The translations under genes were made by a program, and so were the position numbers. This document shows positions 683 through 42,577 of a DNA stretch of 64,000 nt, piece after piece. Source of the stretch: Pelotomaculum schinkii (GTDB taxonomy: Bacteria > Bacillota > Desulfotomaculia > Desulfotomaculales > Pelotomaculaceae); the NCBI RefSeq assembly GCF_004369205.1, contig NZ_QFGA01000001.1, positions 1,860,001 to 1,924,000 on the forward strand. The letters are read 5' to 3'. The notes beneath the pieces are model-generated. The model worked only from the letters and a program-made list of their open reading frames with translations. It ran no database searches and was not told the DNA's origin. Position 1 is the first letter of the stretch, and each line of letters starts with the position of its first letter.

Positions 683-2004
683 TAAACACCTACGCCATAG
701 TATTTGAAGCCCTTTTCGACCATGCTCTTTTTATCATAAATATTCCTCAAATCAAAGAAATAGTCGCCGGCGCCGATTTCCTTAAATTTATCAAAATCTA
801 GGTTCCTGAATTCATTCCACTCGGTCAGGATCACCGTGGCGTCAGTATGCGCCAGGGCTTCATAAGCATTGTCACACCAGGTGAGGCTGTCCTTGATCCC
901 TGCAAAACGCCAGTTCCCCTCTTTACGGCCCGCAGGGTCATACACCTTGAGCTTTGCGCCGCGTTTTACCAGTTCCGGCAGGATCACCAGCGACGGCGCC
1001 TCCCGCATGTCGTCCGTGTTCGGCTTGAAGGTCACGCCGAGCACGGCCAGGGTTTTATCGTTCAGCTCCCCCAAAGCTCCTGCAATTTTATCCACCATTT
1101 TCAGCTTCTGGCGGTCATTGGCAGCGACTGTCGCTTCCACGAGGGATATGGACTCCCCGCAGTCCCGGGCTATTTTCACCAGAGCCCTGGTGTCTTTGGG
1201 AAAGCAGCTCCCGCCGAAACCGGGGCCGGCGTGCAGGAACTTCGGGGAAATGCGCCCGTCCCGCCCCATCGCCTTGGCTACCTTCTGCACGTCCGCGCCG
1301 ACCTTTTCACAGACGTTGGCTACTTCATTGATGAACGTGATCTTCATGGCCAGGAAGGCGTTTGACGCGTACTTGATCATCTCCGCGGTTTCGATGTTGG
1401 TCTCAACAAAGGGGGTTTCGTTGAGATAAAGGACCCGGTAAACTTCCTTCATGACGCTGATGGCCCGGTCGCTTTCAGCGCCGAGGATAACCCGGTCGGG
1501 ATGCATGAAGTCCTGGACAGCGGAGCCTTCCCGCAGGAATTCAGGATTGGACACCACATCAAAGGCATAGTCTACCCTTCTTTCAGTAAGGATAGCCTGC
1601 ACCGCCGCCTTGACCTTTTGGCCGGCGCCCACCGGCACGGTGGACTTGTTCACGATGACCTTGTAGCCGTCCATATGGGTGGCAATGTCTTTTGCCACAG
1701 CGAGCACATACTGCAAGTCCGCGCTGCCGTCGTCCGCCGGGGGAGTGCCGACGGCGATGAAAATAACGTCGTTGTTCTGGACGGCGGACTGGATGTCCGT
1801 GGTAAAGTCAAGGCGTTTGTAGTAGTAGTTGTTCTTGACTATGCGCTCAAGCCCCGGCTCAAAGATGGGGATGACGCCTTCTTTTAGGCCGTTGATCTTA
1901 TTTTCGTCGACGTCTACGCAGGTTACATTGTGGCCGAAGTCGGAGAGGATTGCGCCGGAGACGAGGCCGACGTAGCCGGCGCCGATTACCGCTATTTGGG
2001 GCAT
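682..2004 (-). CDS. ugd: UDP-glucose 6-dehydrogenase, copy 1
   Basis: A 440-residue protein of normal family length that oxidises UDP-glucose to UDP-glucuronate with two NAD+. It has an N-terminal Rossmann motif (GAGYVGLVSG), the central helix region, the catalytic cysteine in GPGFGGSCFPKD at about residue 260, and the C-terminal UDP-binding domain (GVTFKPNTDDMREAPS). The ATG has GAGGTGTCC upstream. It differs from copy 2 at about 11 residues by eye, five of them within residues 30-45, so divergence is concentrated at the N-terminus. The product feeds the epimerase that overlaps its stop codon. Cytoplasmic. Confidence 0.95.
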   Translation of the reverse strand: MPQIAVIGAGYVGLVSGAILSDFGHNVTCVDVDENKINGLKEGVIPIFEPGLERIVKNNYYYKRLDFTTDIQSAVQNNDVIFIAVGTPPADDGSADLQYVLAVAKDIATHMDGYKVIVNKSTVPVGAGQKVKAAVQAILTERRVDYAFDVVSNPEFLREGSAVQDFMHPDRVILGAESDRAISVMKEVYRVLYLNETPFVETNIETAEMIKYASNAFLAMKITFINEVANVCEKVGADVQKVAKAMGRDGRISPKFLHAGPGFGGSCFPKDTRALVKIARDCGESISLVEATVAANDRQKLKMVDKIAGALGELNDKTLAVLGVTFKPNTDDMREAPSLVILPELVKRGAKLKVYDPAGRKEGNWRFAGIKDSLTWCDNAYEALAHTDATVILTEWNEFRNLDFDKFKEIGAGDYFFDLRNIYDKKSMVEKGFKYYGVGV

Positions 2005-4240: not shown

Positions 4241-5233
4241 TTATTTAGTTTTTGAAGGGGACAACCCAGACAATCCTTCTTGCCACCCAAGAATATCAAC
4301 TGCATAAGCAAGAAATTCCTTTAACGTGTTATCACGCTGTTCTTCGAATTCCTGAAAATACGCTGAACTTAATGACGCCAATGCATGTATCAACTGTGGA
4401 AATTTGTTTATGAGAATTGTTTTATCTAATGCCTTATTTTGTAAACGCTGCCTTGTTTTTATTTTTCTATAATTTTTTTCCTTTCGCTCAAATCTTGGTT
4501 TTGAAGCTTTATGAATAACCATTTCCTGCAATTTATCAATCATATTCTGGTATTCGTTATTTAGAACTATGGAAAGATGCAGAAAATAATATTCACTAAT
4601 CTGATTTATATCCTCAGTGGTTGCAATTTTAACTTCTTTTCTGTCTTCATTATTTTCTTCTCGTCTATTATCTCCTAAGATTTTCTTTCTGATATTTTTC
4701 TTATTTTCATAATATCCACGCAGAAGGATGGAAAACATATTAAGATTCATGATATATATTTTGATTTGTAAAAGCATGCCGAGAACATCATCATCTAAGA
4801 TATATAAACCGTTCATTGTAAGATTTTCAAGTTTAACAAGAGCCTGAATAATTTTCTGCTCAGTTGCTATTCCTTGACTGGAATAACAGTTTTCATTATC
4901 CTTTAAAGATAAACCGCTTATCTCAAAGTTGTTTTTCACGGCATCAATGTTTTCCGGAAATGCAGCCGTCTTGCTCTGGTCTTCAACAAATGACCTAATA
5001 GCATCATATTGTTCAAGGCGCAAATCTAGTACCCGCGCTTTAACCTTTTGTATTTCTCTTTTCTTGTCAACAAATAATGTTGAAAATATTGCAACAAGAA
5101 CCGACGCGAATAAGACACCCAGTAGTTCTATAAGGTTTCCTACCATAAAATCCGGTAATTTATTCAGCAATGCTGAAAATTCCGAAGCCGCATGTGAAAA
5201 CCAACCAAATATGTATTCAAATAAAACCTTCAT
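4241..5233 (-). CDS. Uncharacterised single-pass membrane protein, downstream partner
   Basis: A 330-residue protein I do not recognise. One transmembrane helix (about residues 33-55, LIELLGVLFASVLVAIFSTL) follows a short N-terminal segment; the rest is charged, helical and probably cytoplasmic. A lysine/arginine-rich stretch (RKKILGDNRREENNEDRK) near residue 185 may be a linker. The ATG at 5233 has AGGAGG seven bases upstream and overlaps the TGA of the preceding gene as ATGA. It therefore pairs tightly with the membrane protein encoded at 5230-6084. Both sit next to an AbiE pair between repeated copies of ugd, so an accessory or defence role is possible, but nothing in the sequence proves it. 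Confidence 0.7.
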   Translation of the reverse strand: MKVLFEYIFGWFSHAASEFSALLNKLPDFMVGNLIELLGVLFASVLVAIFSTLFVDKKREIQKVKARVLDLRLEQYDAIRSFVEDQSKTAAFPENIDAVKNNFEISGLSLKDNENCYSSQGIATEQKIIQALVKLENLTMNGLYILDDDVLGMLLQIKIYIMNLNMFSILLRGYYENKKNIRKKILGDNRREENNEDRKEVKIATTEDINQISEYYFLHLSIVLNNEYQNMIDKLQEMVIHKASKPRFERKEKNYRKIKTRQRLQNKALDKTILINKFPQLIHALASLSSAYFQEFEEQRDNTLKEFLAYAVDILGWQEGLSGLSPSKTK

Positions 5234-6084
5234 TGCCACACCTCCTGATCATGGAGGAATGGTGTCACCACATACTCATTTGCTTTGAAATGCTTACATA
5301 ATATATCAAATGAAGTACCGGTTTTCTCTGCAATTATATCTATTAGCATCCGAAAGAGCCCTATCTCATTCACAGCATATAATGTTTCGCGAAATTTTCC
5401 ATAAAAGAACCTGACTTTTTCCTCTTCATTTTTAAACGGAGGTTTGCTGCAGGATCTTAAATTATACAGTTCACCAACTAAAGCACGCTCAAAATCGGCT
5501 TGCATTTTTACCATATCGAAGTCTATTACCATACCGACTTTTGGAAGAAACTCTTTTAAAATCTCATCGGTGGTTGACTCATCTAAAAGCGTCCCATCAG
5601 GCATTGGTGTAGTCATTAAATATTTGTAGTATCCATCAAGCTTTGACAGATACAGATAAACATATATAAATTGCTTATAAGATTTAGGACCTACCAAATG
5701 GAGCTTGTTGGTATAAAAACTGTCAAGTGACTTAACAATAGTTTGAAGTTTTTCTCTGCCCTCAAGGAAAGGAGGATACTCTACTGCAGGTCTATCCTTA
5801 AGTGTCGCAACCCCATACTTATCTAATTCACTACGGATATCCAATTCAGTATCCAGAACAATGGTTCTTTCGTTGATTCTTGCCATTGAATCCAGTATTT
5901 CAAGATAAGCGGTTATTCGGTCATTAAGAATTTTCCCTTCACGTTCATTCAAAGCTTCTTGCTTTGACAACCAATGAATTGTAATAAACCCTACAGCTCC
6001 TGCAACGATAATTGTAGAAAGGAAACCGAAGATGCCCTGCCATATACTTTCTGATAACCCAAGAAAAACTGTCTGGTCAATCAA
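5230..6084 (-). CDS. Uncharacterised single-pass membrane protein, upstream partner
   Basis: A 284-residue protein starting at a TTG (6084) that has GGGAGGAGG six bases upstream. The ribosome site lies inside the epimerase gene and the two genes overlap by 8 bases. Residues about 13-35 (WQGIFGFLSTIIVAGAVGFI) form one transmembrane helix, followed by a soluble helical domain with no motif I recognise. Its stop overlaps the start of the gene at 4241-5233. The layout (N-terminal helix plus cytoplasmic domain, repeated in two neighbours) suggests a membrane-anchored heteromeric complex. That is inference; the family is unknown to me. Confidence 0.7.
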   Translation of the reverse strand: MIDQTVFLGLSESIWQGIFGFLSTIIVAGAVGFITIHWLSKQEALNEREGKILNDRITAYLEILDSMARINERTIVLDTELDIRSELDKYGVATLKDRPAVEYPPFLEGREKLQTIVKSLDSFYTNKLHLVGPKSYKQFIYVYLYLSKLDGYYKYLMTTPMPDGTLLDESTTDEILKEFLPKVGMVIDFDMVKMQADFERALVGELYNLRSCSKPPFKNEEEKVRFFYGKFRETLYAVNEIGLFRMLIDIIAEKTGTSFDILCKHFKANEYVVTPFLHDQEVWQ

Positions 6085-7087
6085 CTGTGGCCTCCTCCCT
6101 CGTATACCACGCCACAAACCTGCCGATGCCTTCATAGATACTGGTGCTTGGCTTAAAACCGACGTCCCTCACTAAATCCGTCACGTCAGCGTAGGTTTGA
6201 TACACATCGCCCGGCTGCATGGGGTAAAACTCCTTGACCGCCTTTTTGCCCACGGCGTTTTCAATGGCCCCGATGAAATCCATCAGTTTCTCCGGCTTGT
6301 TGTTGCCGATGTTATACAGCTTATACGGGGCATCCGGCATGGTGAGCACGGGGGAGTTCTCGATCAAAGGCAGGATCCCGCCGACAACGTCGTCGATATA
6401 GGTAAAATCCCTGTACATGTCACCGTTGTTAAACACCCGGATCGGCCTATCCTCCAGGATCGCTTTGGTAAACGAAAAATACGCCATGTCCGGCCTGCCG
6501 TACGGCCCGTAGACGGTGAAAAACCGCAGGCCCGTGGCGGGTATCCGGTAGAGGTGGCTGTAGGTGTAGGCCATCAGCTCATTGGATTTCTTGGTGGCCG
6601 CGTAGAGGCTGACCGGGTTATCAACGGGATCGTCCGTGGCAAAAGGGACTTTTTTGTTGTTGCCGTAGACAGAGCTGGACGACGCGTACAAAAGATGCCG
6701 CACCGGGTGGCGCCTGCAGCATTCCAGGATATTAAAAAACCCCACGATGTTGGACCGGATGTAGGCTTGCGGGTTTTCAACGCTGTAGCGCACGCCGGCC
6801 TGCGCCGCCAGGTTGATGACCACGTCGATGCTGTTCTCAGTGAACAGGGTCTCAAGAGTTTCCTTTTCAGACAGATCTATTTTGTAAAAGGTGAATTGAT
6901 CATACTGCTTGAGAATATCCAACCTGGCATATTTCAGCCGGACGTCGTAATAATCATTCAAATTATCCAGGCCGATAACGGCGCAGCCCTGTTCCAAAAG
7001 CCTTTGTGAGAGATGCATACCGATAAACCCGGCCGCGCCCGTCACCAAATATGTCTTTTTAGCATCAACTGATTTTAGCTTCTTCAT
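6077..7087 (-). CDS. UDP-glucuronate 4-epimerase, copy 2
   Basis: A complete 336-residue extended SDR epimerase. It has the NAD-binding motif TGAAGFIGMHL at about residue 17, SSSSVYGNNKK near 130, the catalytic YAATK near 157 and RFFTVYGPYGRPDM near 185, typical of the CapI/LpsL group that makes UDP-galacturonate from UDP-glucuronate. The start codon overlaps the stop of ugd copy 2 by one base, so the pair forms a dedicated uronic-acid cassette. The TTG start of a membrane protein lies inside its last codons. Cytoplasmic. Activity on UDP-glucose instead is possible but less likely given the ugd neighbour. Confidence 0.9.
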   Translation of the reverse strand: MKKLKSVDAKKTYLVTGAAGFIGMHLSQRLLEQGCAVIGLDNLNDYYDVRLKYARLDILKQYDQFTFYKIDLSEKETLETLFTENSIDVVINLAAQAGVRYSVENPQAYIRSNIVGFFNILECCRRHPVRHLLYASSSSVYGNNKKVPFATDDPVDNPVSLYAATKKSNELMAYTYSHLYRIPATGLRFFTVYGPYGRPDMAYFSFTKAILEDRPIRVFNNGDMYRDFTYIDDVVGGILPLIENSPVLTMPDAPYKLYNIGNNKPEKLMDFIGAIENAVGKKAVKEFYPMQPGDVYQTYADVTDLVRDVGFKPSTSIYEGIGRFVAWYTREEATVD

Positions 7088-41204: not shown

Positions 41205-41254
41205 AACCTCACCTCCAGTACTTTTGCACACGGCAAAAAAAATAGACAAAAAAA

Positions 41255-41340
41255 ACTCTGAAAAGGATAGCCGGTTGCGTCACTGGCTCCTGCTGGCTTC
41301 AGACGCCCAAGTAAGAAGCCGGATTCATCGCCTCGTCTTT
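41255..41340 (-). ncRNA. Structured leader upstream of wzz2
   Basis: The minus strand repeats the leader seen before wzz1: GGCGATGAATCCGGC, then TTGGGCGTCTGAAGCC, then GAGCCAGTGACGCAACCGGC (41260-41335). GCGTC and GACGC pair around the loop. A run of eight Ts follows (41249-41258), but here the terminator stem is poor. Conservation across two separate wzz leaders, while the flanking bases have diverged, argues for an RNA function. It lies about 75 bases after the predicted promoter. Confidence 0.6.
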
Positions 41341-41415
41341 CCAGCGGTTTAAAAGTCCATTAACCACCAGATCATATGTGATTTTGATATTCAACATATT
41401 TTTACCTACCGTTAT

Positions 41416-41444
41416 ATTTTAATAGAAATATAGATAAATTACAA
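41416..41444 (-). promoter_or_regulatory. SigA-type promoter of the exopolysaccharide operon
   Basis: Minus strand: TTGTAA (41444-41439), 17 bases, TAAAAT (41421-41416). Transcription would start near 41409 and run about 200 bases through the leader to the wzz2 start. No other equally good promoter was noticed before the locus, so it may drive most of the 40-kb cluster together with internal promoters. Confidence 0.65.
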
Positions 41445-41520
41445 CATTTAAATACATTGAGCCTCTGGCAAAGTCCCCCATCGGCCGCCGCGCCGGCGGA
41501 TGAGGGCATCCGAGGGAAAA

Positions 41521-41595
41521 GAAAAAACCGCCGAAAGCTGAGGCGGTCATCAAAAAGGAGAATGGTTTCTCCGATGAGTATGGCAAAATTATTTT
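41521..41595 (-). ncRNA. Candidate small RNA unit 0
   Basis: Minus strand: TAAAAT (about 41594-41599), then a hairpin GGAGAA/TTCTCC, the stretch TTCTCCTTTTTGATG, and a terminator ACCGCC/GGCGGT with six Ts (41521-41547). It shares the pyrimidine-rich CTCCTTTT directly before a terminator with units A and B to its right. Shorter and more diverged than those. Confidence 0.4.
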
Positions 41596-41660
41596 ACCAT
41601 AATTTAAAAGAATATACTATAGGTAATAGTACTATCATGTAAAATAGTTTTTAGAAATTT

Positions 41661-41768
41661 AAAAAAATGCCTGCCTTACGAAGGCGGGCAACACAGAAAA
41701 GGAGGTTCCATTATTAAGTTGTGGGACTTGCATATATGCAATCCGGCCAATAGCCGGTGATTGTCCTT
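41661..41768 (-). ncRNA. Candidate small RNA unit A
   Basis: Minus strand: TACAAT box (41776-41771), AGGACAATCACCGGC, a hairpin CCGGC/GCCGG (about 41743-41757), a single-stranded-looking GGAACCTCCTTTTCTGTG, and a strong terminator (TGCCCGCCTT/AAGGCAGGCA, seven Ts, 41661-41691). The CCTCCTTTT segment is complementary to Shine-Dalgarno sequences. No coding frame. Confidence 0.5.
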
Positions 41769-41844
41769 TGATTGTATTTTAACCCGCTATTCTTAAATCA
41801 ACCTGAGGAAAAGATGAATATTTGCTGAATGTATCTATGAAAAT

Positions 41845-41975
41845 TTAAAACCCGCCTTAAAAAGGCGGGTCACAAAAGGAAGGAAAAGGAGGTTAGGAGG
41901 ATGGTCCTGGTATATAATCCGGCGGCAGCCGGTTATTGTCCTGCTTAAAAAAGCGGTGCGACTCTGGATTGGTTG
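41845..41975 (-). ncRNA. Candidate small RNA unit B
   Basis: Minus strand: TACAAT box (41982-41977), then AGGACAATAACCGGC, hairpin CCGGC/GCCGG (41919-41932), CCATCCTCCTAACCTCC followed by TTTTCCTTCC, and terminator ACCCGCC/GGCGGGT with a T-run (41845-41870). The order and several blocks match unit A, so the two are tandem duplicates. The C-rich region is longer here, with two anti-Shine-Dalgarno stretches. On the opposite strand the same bases give a GGAGG site and a 15-codon frame, which I consider accidental. Confidence 0.5.
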
Positions 41976-42025
41976 TATTGTAACCTTATTTCCTTAAATT
42001 AAGCTGAAGAATATATTAAATTTTC

Positions 42026-42059
42026 GTTAAAACCGCCAATCAACAAGACTGGCGGTTTA
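42026..42059 (-). terminator. Hairpin terminator in the tandem RNA region
   Basis: AACCGCC(42031-42037) pairs with GGCGGTT (42051-42057). On the minus strand it is followed by TTTTAACG. It is the fourth hairpin of this type in 540 bases and may mark the end of a further, degenerate unit. Confidence 0.6.
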
Positions 42060-42115
42060 TGAAATAGGGATCTATCAGATTTCTATTCAACCCCGGTAAT
42101 TATTTGTAAGATATA

Positions 42116-42144
42116 TTGACTAATACGTAATATACGTATATCAT
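42116..42144 (+). promoter_or_regulatory. Promoter with palindromic operator for hicB
   Basis: TTGACT (42116-42121), 17 bases, TATCAT (42139-42144). The spacer contains TACGTA-ATA-TACGTA (42124-42138), two palindromic half-sites. Antitoxins with ribbon-helix-helix domains usually bind such sites to repress themselves, so this is the likely operator. Confidence 0.7.
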
Positions 42145-42166
42145 ATTAAGTATAGGGAGGGTGGCA

Positions 42167-42577
42167 ATGAAAGGTAATAGGAGTGATTTTATCATGTTAA
42201 CAATTTATCCAGCTGTTTTCCATCAAGAAGACGGAGCGTTTTGGGTTGATTTTCCGGATCTTGAGGGTTGCCAGACCTATGGGGAGACATTGCAAGAGAC
42301 AATGGCCTTGGCACAAGAGGCATTGGGGCTTTATCTTGCGTCCCTGGAGGAAGCAGGAACCACAGCGCCAACAGCAACAGAAATCAAGAAAATTATTACT
42401 CCAGAGAATGCTTTTGCGACCCTTGTATCTTGTAACGTTGATCATTATCGGCGCAAAACCAAGGCGATAAAGAAAACTCTTTCAATTCCCGAATGGCTGA
42501 ACGAAGAAGCGGAAAAAAGGCATATTAATTTTTCATCTGTACTCCAGAACGCATTAAAACAGGAATTGGCAAAATAG
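42167..42577 (+). CDS. hicB: HicB-family antitoxin-like protein, no HicA partner
   Basis: A 136-residue protein from the ATG at 42167 (GGAGGG seven bases upstream; an internal ATG at 42194 is also possible). Residues 11-75 form the HicB partial-RNase-H fold: LTIYPAVFHQEDGAFWV, FPDLEGCQTYGETLQETM and ALGLYLASLEE. The C-terminal 30 residues (SIPEWLNEEAEKRHINFSSV) resemble a ribbon-helix-helix DNA-binding domain. The gene is alone on the plus strand, followed directly by a terminator, so no hicA is present. It may be an orphan repressor; a HicA remnant lies 40 kb away at 2080. Confidence 0.88.
   Translation: MKGNRSDFIMLTIYPAVFHQEDGAFWVDFPDLEGCQTYGETLQETMALAQEALGLYLASLEEAGTTAPTATEIKKIITPENAFATLVSCNVDHYRRKTKAIKKTLSIPEWLNEEAEKRHINFSSVLQNALKQELAK

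Follow-up and report, generated by a model that had tools for sequence, protein, structure and literature searches.

What is encoded by the repeated hairpin-and-terminator units that lie on the minus strand between hicB and a polysaccharide operon in Pelotomaculum schinkii? The original prediction saw in them a tandem family of small regulatory RNAs (sRNAs) carrying an unpaired anti-Shine-Dalgarno (anti-SD) stretch beside the terminator. We examined this proposal in the window (the whole 64,000-nucleotide stretch of DNA that was analysed), in the rest of the genome and in the genomes of relatives. Two of the units, A and B, are probably tandem paralogous genes of a new family of trans-acting sRNAs of about 110-130 nt, predicted to be controlled by a response regulator and to block SD sequences.

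Anatomy of the locus

Units A (42023-41845) and B (41822-41662), taken with their promoters, are paralogous, and both lie on the minus strand between hicB and the polysaccharide operon, which runs on the same strand and encodes Wzz, a BY-kinase-like ATPase and CpsB (Table 1). In both units, three T-rich half-sites are followed in the 5' to 3' direction by a -10 box without a -35 box, a leader of variable length, a CCGG hairpin, a pyrimidine tract containing CCUCC and an intrinsic terminator. Among the direct repeats found inside an 800-base span are stretches of 56 nt (73%), 34 nt (74%) and 16 nt (94%). The elements that the two units had been said to share, namely the AGGACAAT.ACCGGC block, the CCGGC/GCCGG hairpin, CCTCCTTTTC ahead of the minus-strand terminator and a TACAAT box, were all recovered. 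Both units are real, and with the conserved promoter, which is part of them, they reach further upstream than first drawn.

Table 1. Positions of the features described in the text (window coordinates, except for the last row)
Feature	Positions	Strand	Remarks
hicB (HicB_lk_antitox)	42161-42577		one flank of both units
Stable hairpin between unit A and hicB	42030-42058	unassigned	four T only; weak terminator at best
Unit A promoter	41976-42023	-	TTTAAT (42020-42015), CTTCAG (42009-42004), TTTAAG (41998-41993); 11-bp steps
Unit A -10, TACAAT	41982-41977	-	without -35 hexamer
Putative sRNA, unit A	41845-41975	-	about 125-130 nt, with the -10 used to place the 5' end
Unit A 5' hairpin, CCGGC-UGCC-GCCGG	41919-41932	-
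Unit A pyrimidine tract, CCUCCUAACCUCCUUUUCCUUCCUUUU	41874-41900	-	anti-SD-like
Unit A intrinsic terminator	41841-41871	-
Unit B promoter	41776-41822	-	ATTCAT (41819-41814), CCTCAG (41808-41803), TTTAAG (41797-41792)
Unit B -10, TAAAAT	41781-41776	-
Putative sRNA, unit B	41662-41770	-	about 109 nt; about 25 nt of unit A's 5' part missing
Unit B 5' hairpin, CCGGC-UAUUG-GCCGG	41743-41757	-
Unit B pyrimidine tract, CCUCCUUUUCU	41695-41705	-
Unit B intrinsic terminator	41662-41690	-
Unit C, separate short terminated element	41520-41615	-	non-member; promoter-like stretch TATGGTAAAATAATTTTGCCATACTCAT
Wzz homologue of polysaccharide operon	41249-40278	-	other flank of both units
Apparent gene fragments, Desulfoscipio geothermicus	L060 ~5160-5480; L061 ~5720-5840, 6296-6400

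The tandem family comprises two units and not three. The presumed third copy (41594-41521), unit C, has no family promoter, CCGG hairpin or free CUCC; its CUCC is paired, forming the 3' arm of the hairpin GGAGAAACCAUUCUCC. It is of a separate type with another promoter-like box, and clear relatives were seen only in L003 and L100. In the window and at both of these loci, the near-palindromic ATGGTAAAATAATTTTGCCAT is followed by CTCAT and a terminator in the space of about 70 nt, and this is a second small element type. In L003, the unit C paralogue lies directly upstream of a HesB/IscA-like ORF (MLKVEFTDDAMDYILQKNADSITVDMMNLGG; ~1200-1325, minus strand, near 731055 of G000:C2) that meets an in-frame TGA, followed by GGNFWEP, and possibly encodes a selenoprotein. 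Of the four hairpins that had been read as minus-strand terminators, those at A, B and 41547-41523 have T-tracts, whereas the one at 42058-42030 has only TTTTAACG; it belongs to no unit.

Range of the family and conservation of its hairpin

When the genome was searched with the region, a third paralogue was found at C2:1012604-1012782 (E 2e-28), and copies are present in both other genomes of the genus (E 1e-17 to 1e-22). A covariance model, R1, consisting of the promoter plus the hairpin and trained on eight copies, was searched in 113 genomes representing the whole order (the class comprises the identical 113). Untrained matches were obtained twice in Desulfoscipio geothermicus (G049; E 1.4e-9 and 5e-9), in G043 (E 2.7e-6), in G053 (E 2e-5) and at a third locus of G001, a Desulfotomaculaceae bacterium (E 2e-4); weaker ones came from Pelotomaculum terephthalicicum (G003, twice, E 2-3e-4), G020 (E 1e-3) and G079 (E 3e-3). 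The copies recovered in this way thus include ones from further genera and families within the order. The resemblance between A and B is beyond chance, as the third copy, the copies in the genus and the untrained copies recovered in another family demonstrate, and conservation in related genomes, one of the checks proposed with the original prediction, was confirmed by the covariance search across the order. A wider model run on 398 genomes of the phylum, under strict filters and with limited sensitivity, yielded nothing new beyond the order/class, and a plasmid collection contained no match to the region; as far as searched, the family is confined to this order/class, the Desulfotomaculum-Pelotomaculum group. 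No Rfam family reached its gathering score in the window, in line with the earlier statement that no family name could be assigned. Weak matches to VqmR, RAGATH-9 and anti-hemB, far under gathering and mostly matching the terminator, were rejected.

The genomic neighbours of the copies vary, including a DUF1657 gene, tRNA/5S genes, small membrane-protein genes and apparent recA fragments. The copies in D. geothermicus are flanked by apparent gene fragments (a recA C-terminus and a small MARKKDS-type protein), and two copies (L017 and L020) adjoin genes for small proteins (GNWGFIIFLIFILFIFGVGF) that we take, by eye only, to be YjcZ-like.

In the CCGG helix, 97% of alignment cells are paired; seven additional types of pair occur, and there are compensatory changes such as ACAGG/CCUGU in L057 and CCGGA/UCCGG in L020. 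The covariation score was equalled by 1 of 500 shuffled sets and slid-structure controls were far lower, in an alignment whose fitting to the model somewhat favours structure and in a helix with only five pairs, of which two never vary. The CCGG hairpin is maintained by compensatory changes. The z-scores of the free energy are modest, lying between -2 and -4 (one copy is at -0.5 because its terminator was cut off), and the minimum-energy folds of L002, L010 and L011 favour other pairings over the CCGG hairpin.

The promoter and a candidate response regulator

Upstream of the -10, the promoters carry no -35 box and instead have three direct half-sites (TTTMAG) at an exact spacing of 11 bp; in the aligned promoters these read NTTTMAK, the last standing about 10 bp ahead of TAAAAT. 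Autocorrelation at a lag of 11 was 0.476 versus 0.321 expected (5 of 1000 column shuffles), other lags being unremarkable. Half-sites at such a spacing before a -10 are typical of activation by OmpR/PhoB-type response regulators, and the promoter anatomy would be the signature of such a regulator.

In the 4.4 Mb of the genome there are three exact matches to the half-site motif CAGSTTRATTTAAGRAW, each of which precedes one of these RNAs. Promoter matches with two or three mismatches are about as frequent as in the reversed control, those with two lying in other contexts, and so no wider regulon can be claimed in this genome beyond L068 (C1:1517152), where a promoter with three half-sites stands before the gene for a 148-aa putative membrane protein with no Pfam family. 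A response regulator encoded at C2:903675-904379 (Response_reg plus Trans_reg_C) has TTTCAG-type repeats upstream, and its Desulfoscipio orthologue is preceded by TTTCAG-N5-TTTCAG-N10-TAAAAT, laid out as in the RNA promoters. RNA-model matches were found in 3 of 9 genomes carrying this regulator (L072/L119) versus 7 of 104 non-carriers (Fisher p 0.03, confounded by kinship); several carriers are without the RNA, and the two distributions agree only partly. We offer the L072/L119-type regulator as a candidate controller of the RNAs, that is, as a lead. At L072/L119, L120 and L121, an OmpR-type two-component system has upstream arrays of TTTCAG half-sites, both direct and inverted. In both G000 and G001, the upstream region of this system is shared with a divergent ORF that resembles a VTC-type polyphosphate polymerase, with DUF4956 after it.

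The family promoter also precedes a DUF2680 protein gene in G043, an arrangement that by eye recurs at the match in G079. In G003, both the promoter and the hairpin stand at the head of an mRNA for a secreted protein containing a Cu_amine_oxidN1 domain. Promoter and hairpin alone therefore do not define an sRNA; they constitute a module that can be joined either to an sRNA body or to an mRNA. A more speculative and rather doubtful extension is that one response-regulator regulon of the class shares this start module between mRNAs for secreted proteins and sRNAs mimicking the 16S 3' end: the signal would make new surface proteins while lowering SD-dependent translation, and the sRNAs would have arisen when a CU tract and a terminator took the place of the mRNA body. 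At L045 and L047 (G028 and G053, ~1590-1800), the promoter of the family is followed by a longer CCGG hairpin and then, with no terminator, by about 130 nt that are conserved and seem to be structured (GACAAAAG.TATCCCGGA..GATCAGCC...GACCCGGG.GTGGGCCGATAA). This is possibly another RNA, and in L012, which covers the place of L045, it had no Rfam match at gathering.

The pyrimidine tract and the probable mode of action

Between the hairpin and the terminator, 11 of the 12 terminated copies have a pyrimidine-rich tract (fraction 0.60-0.88, longest runs 9-23 nt). In the 30 nt ahead of the terminator, the pyrimidine fraction is 0.81 for 11 members versus 0.44 for 47 other terminators of the same genome, none of which reaches 0.75, and CCTCC is present in 7 of the 11 versus 0 of the 47, a statistic that overstates independence because the family members are related. 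Structure ensembles leave the tract mostly unpaired (0.57-0.96). The 3' end of the genome's own 16S rRNA reads GGATCACCTCCTTTCT / CACCUCCUUUCU, to which the CU tract ACCUCCUUUUCU is almost identical; the anti-SD letters fade with distance, the tracts of Desulfoscipio and P. terephthalicicum having CUCC or CCUUU, not ACCUCCUUU. Since the tract is mostly unpaired and so close to the 16S 3' end, pairing with SD sequences would be its natural reading. Conservation, covariation, the statistics of the tract and the lack of an Rfam match all speak for the core of the original prediction, a small regulatory RNA of no named family with an unpaired anti-SD tract beside its terminator.

Units A and B have their own promoters, a conserved structure, a terminator and a locus independent of the neighbouring genes, as is characteristic of intrinsically terminated trans-acting sRNA genes. 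The sequence features suggest that: each unit would be transcribed leftwards from its own promoter; an OmpR/PhoB-family regulator, bound to the three direct half-sites one helical turn apart, may switch this promoter on; the conserved 5' CCGG hairpin would leave the 3' CU-rich tract single-stranded; the RNA would end at the strong terminator; and the free CU tract is predicted to cover the ribosome-binding sites of target mRNAs.

All of the terminators lie on the strand of the polysaccharide operon and upstream of its Wzz/BY-kinase/CpsB genes, and the units might be a leader/attenuator or insulating terminators of that operon (wzz starts at 41249) rather than free sRNAs. We consider this improbable, as every unit has its own conserved promoter, attenuation needs no two full promoter-to-terminator units, and homologous units elsewhere adjoin unrelated genes, none having been seen upstream of a polysaccharide operon. 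The suggestion that the units control the adjacent polysaccharide operon or sporulation genes is unsupported, since homologues at other loci adjoin unrelated genes. On the plus strand, AAGGAGG could be a genuine SD for a tiny ORF, with the minus-strand CCUCC as its mere complement; unit A has AAAAGGAGG...ATGGTCCTGGTATATAATCCGGCGGCAGCC there, and a frame (Y/C)NP....RLF is open in several copies. However, there is no common start codon (the L044 and L054 frames are preceded by a stop without a start), the frame shifts after NPA in unit A and ends at CNPANSR in unit B, the SD would lie directly behind a hairpin with no space for a promoter, and the conserved promoter points the opposite way. With its missing shared start, broken frames and lack of promoter space, the peptide is extremely improbable and was rejected. 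It is somewhat less unlikely that the transcripts work by means of their 5' hairpin or its sequence (by protein binding, or as a sponge or decoy), the tract serving stability or protein binding: conservation of the hairpin and of the flanking AAUAACCGG...CCGGAUUAYAUA extends to more copies than that of the precise anti-SD letters, and both also lead an mRNA in G003. Against this, all but one of the terminated copies keep the pyrimidine tract, and seven keep CCUCC.

RoxS/RsaE is a small trans-acting RNA whose unpaired C-rich regions pair with SD regions and whose transcription is activated by the two-component response regulator ResD/SrrA, and CsfG is a small RNA with C-rich regions in its single-stranded parts (PMC4409812). 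FsrA of B. subtilis pairs with its targets via C-rich regions, and CsfG is under sigma F and sigma G control in the B. subtilis forespore (PMC8216469). The layout of A and B is alike, with unpaired C-rich regions near the terminator, and RoxS is activated by a response regulator, ResD (PMC4409812, PMC8216469). Yet membership in any of these families by descent is very unlikely: no Rfam model, that of RoxS/RsaE included, matched at gathering in the window, a permissive scan of 41300-42300 gave no RsaE/CsfG match up to E 5, and nothing was found outside the class among the 398 phylum genomes (limited sensitivity). As in RoxS/RsaE, an unpaired C-rich region would be free for SD pairing, here as one CU tract, not four CRRs. 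In contrast to RoxS/RsaE of Bacillus and Staphylococcus, units A and B combine a single 3' CU tract containing CCUCC with a 5' CCGG hairpin, their half-sites directly replace the -35 box instead of lying near -65, and several paralogues occur per genome, in another class. As regards activation by ResD/SrrA, OmpR-type 11-bp half-sites are present here, and their regulator may or may not be of that kind. FsrA, a member of the Fur regulon, shares the C-rich pairing region; no Fur-like site was recognised here, and there was no covariance match. CsfG likewise has a C-rich single-stranded region and gave no covariance match, and the original comparison with it fails on the promoter, where we saw response-regulator-type half-sites and a TAAAAT -10 instead of a sigma F/G promoter (compared by eye with the sigma F/G consensus). 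RoxS/RsaE, FsrA and CsfG would thus be the closest analogues in the way they work, relation by descent being unsupported; as membership is not supported by the covariance search, A and B are filed as a new sRNA family.

Literature searches on sRNAs of Pelotomaculum or Desulfotomaculum returned nothing relevant; as far as searched, the family is previously undescribed and SD-blocking sRNA control, a style known elsewhere, is unrecorded in this class. With the RNA family defined, its promoter signature described and a candidate for the regulator named, two-component control of sRNAs becomes testable in these syntrophic and sulfate-reducing anaerobes. The family also suggests that C-rich, SD-blocking sRNAs may have originated independently more than once in the Firmicutes.
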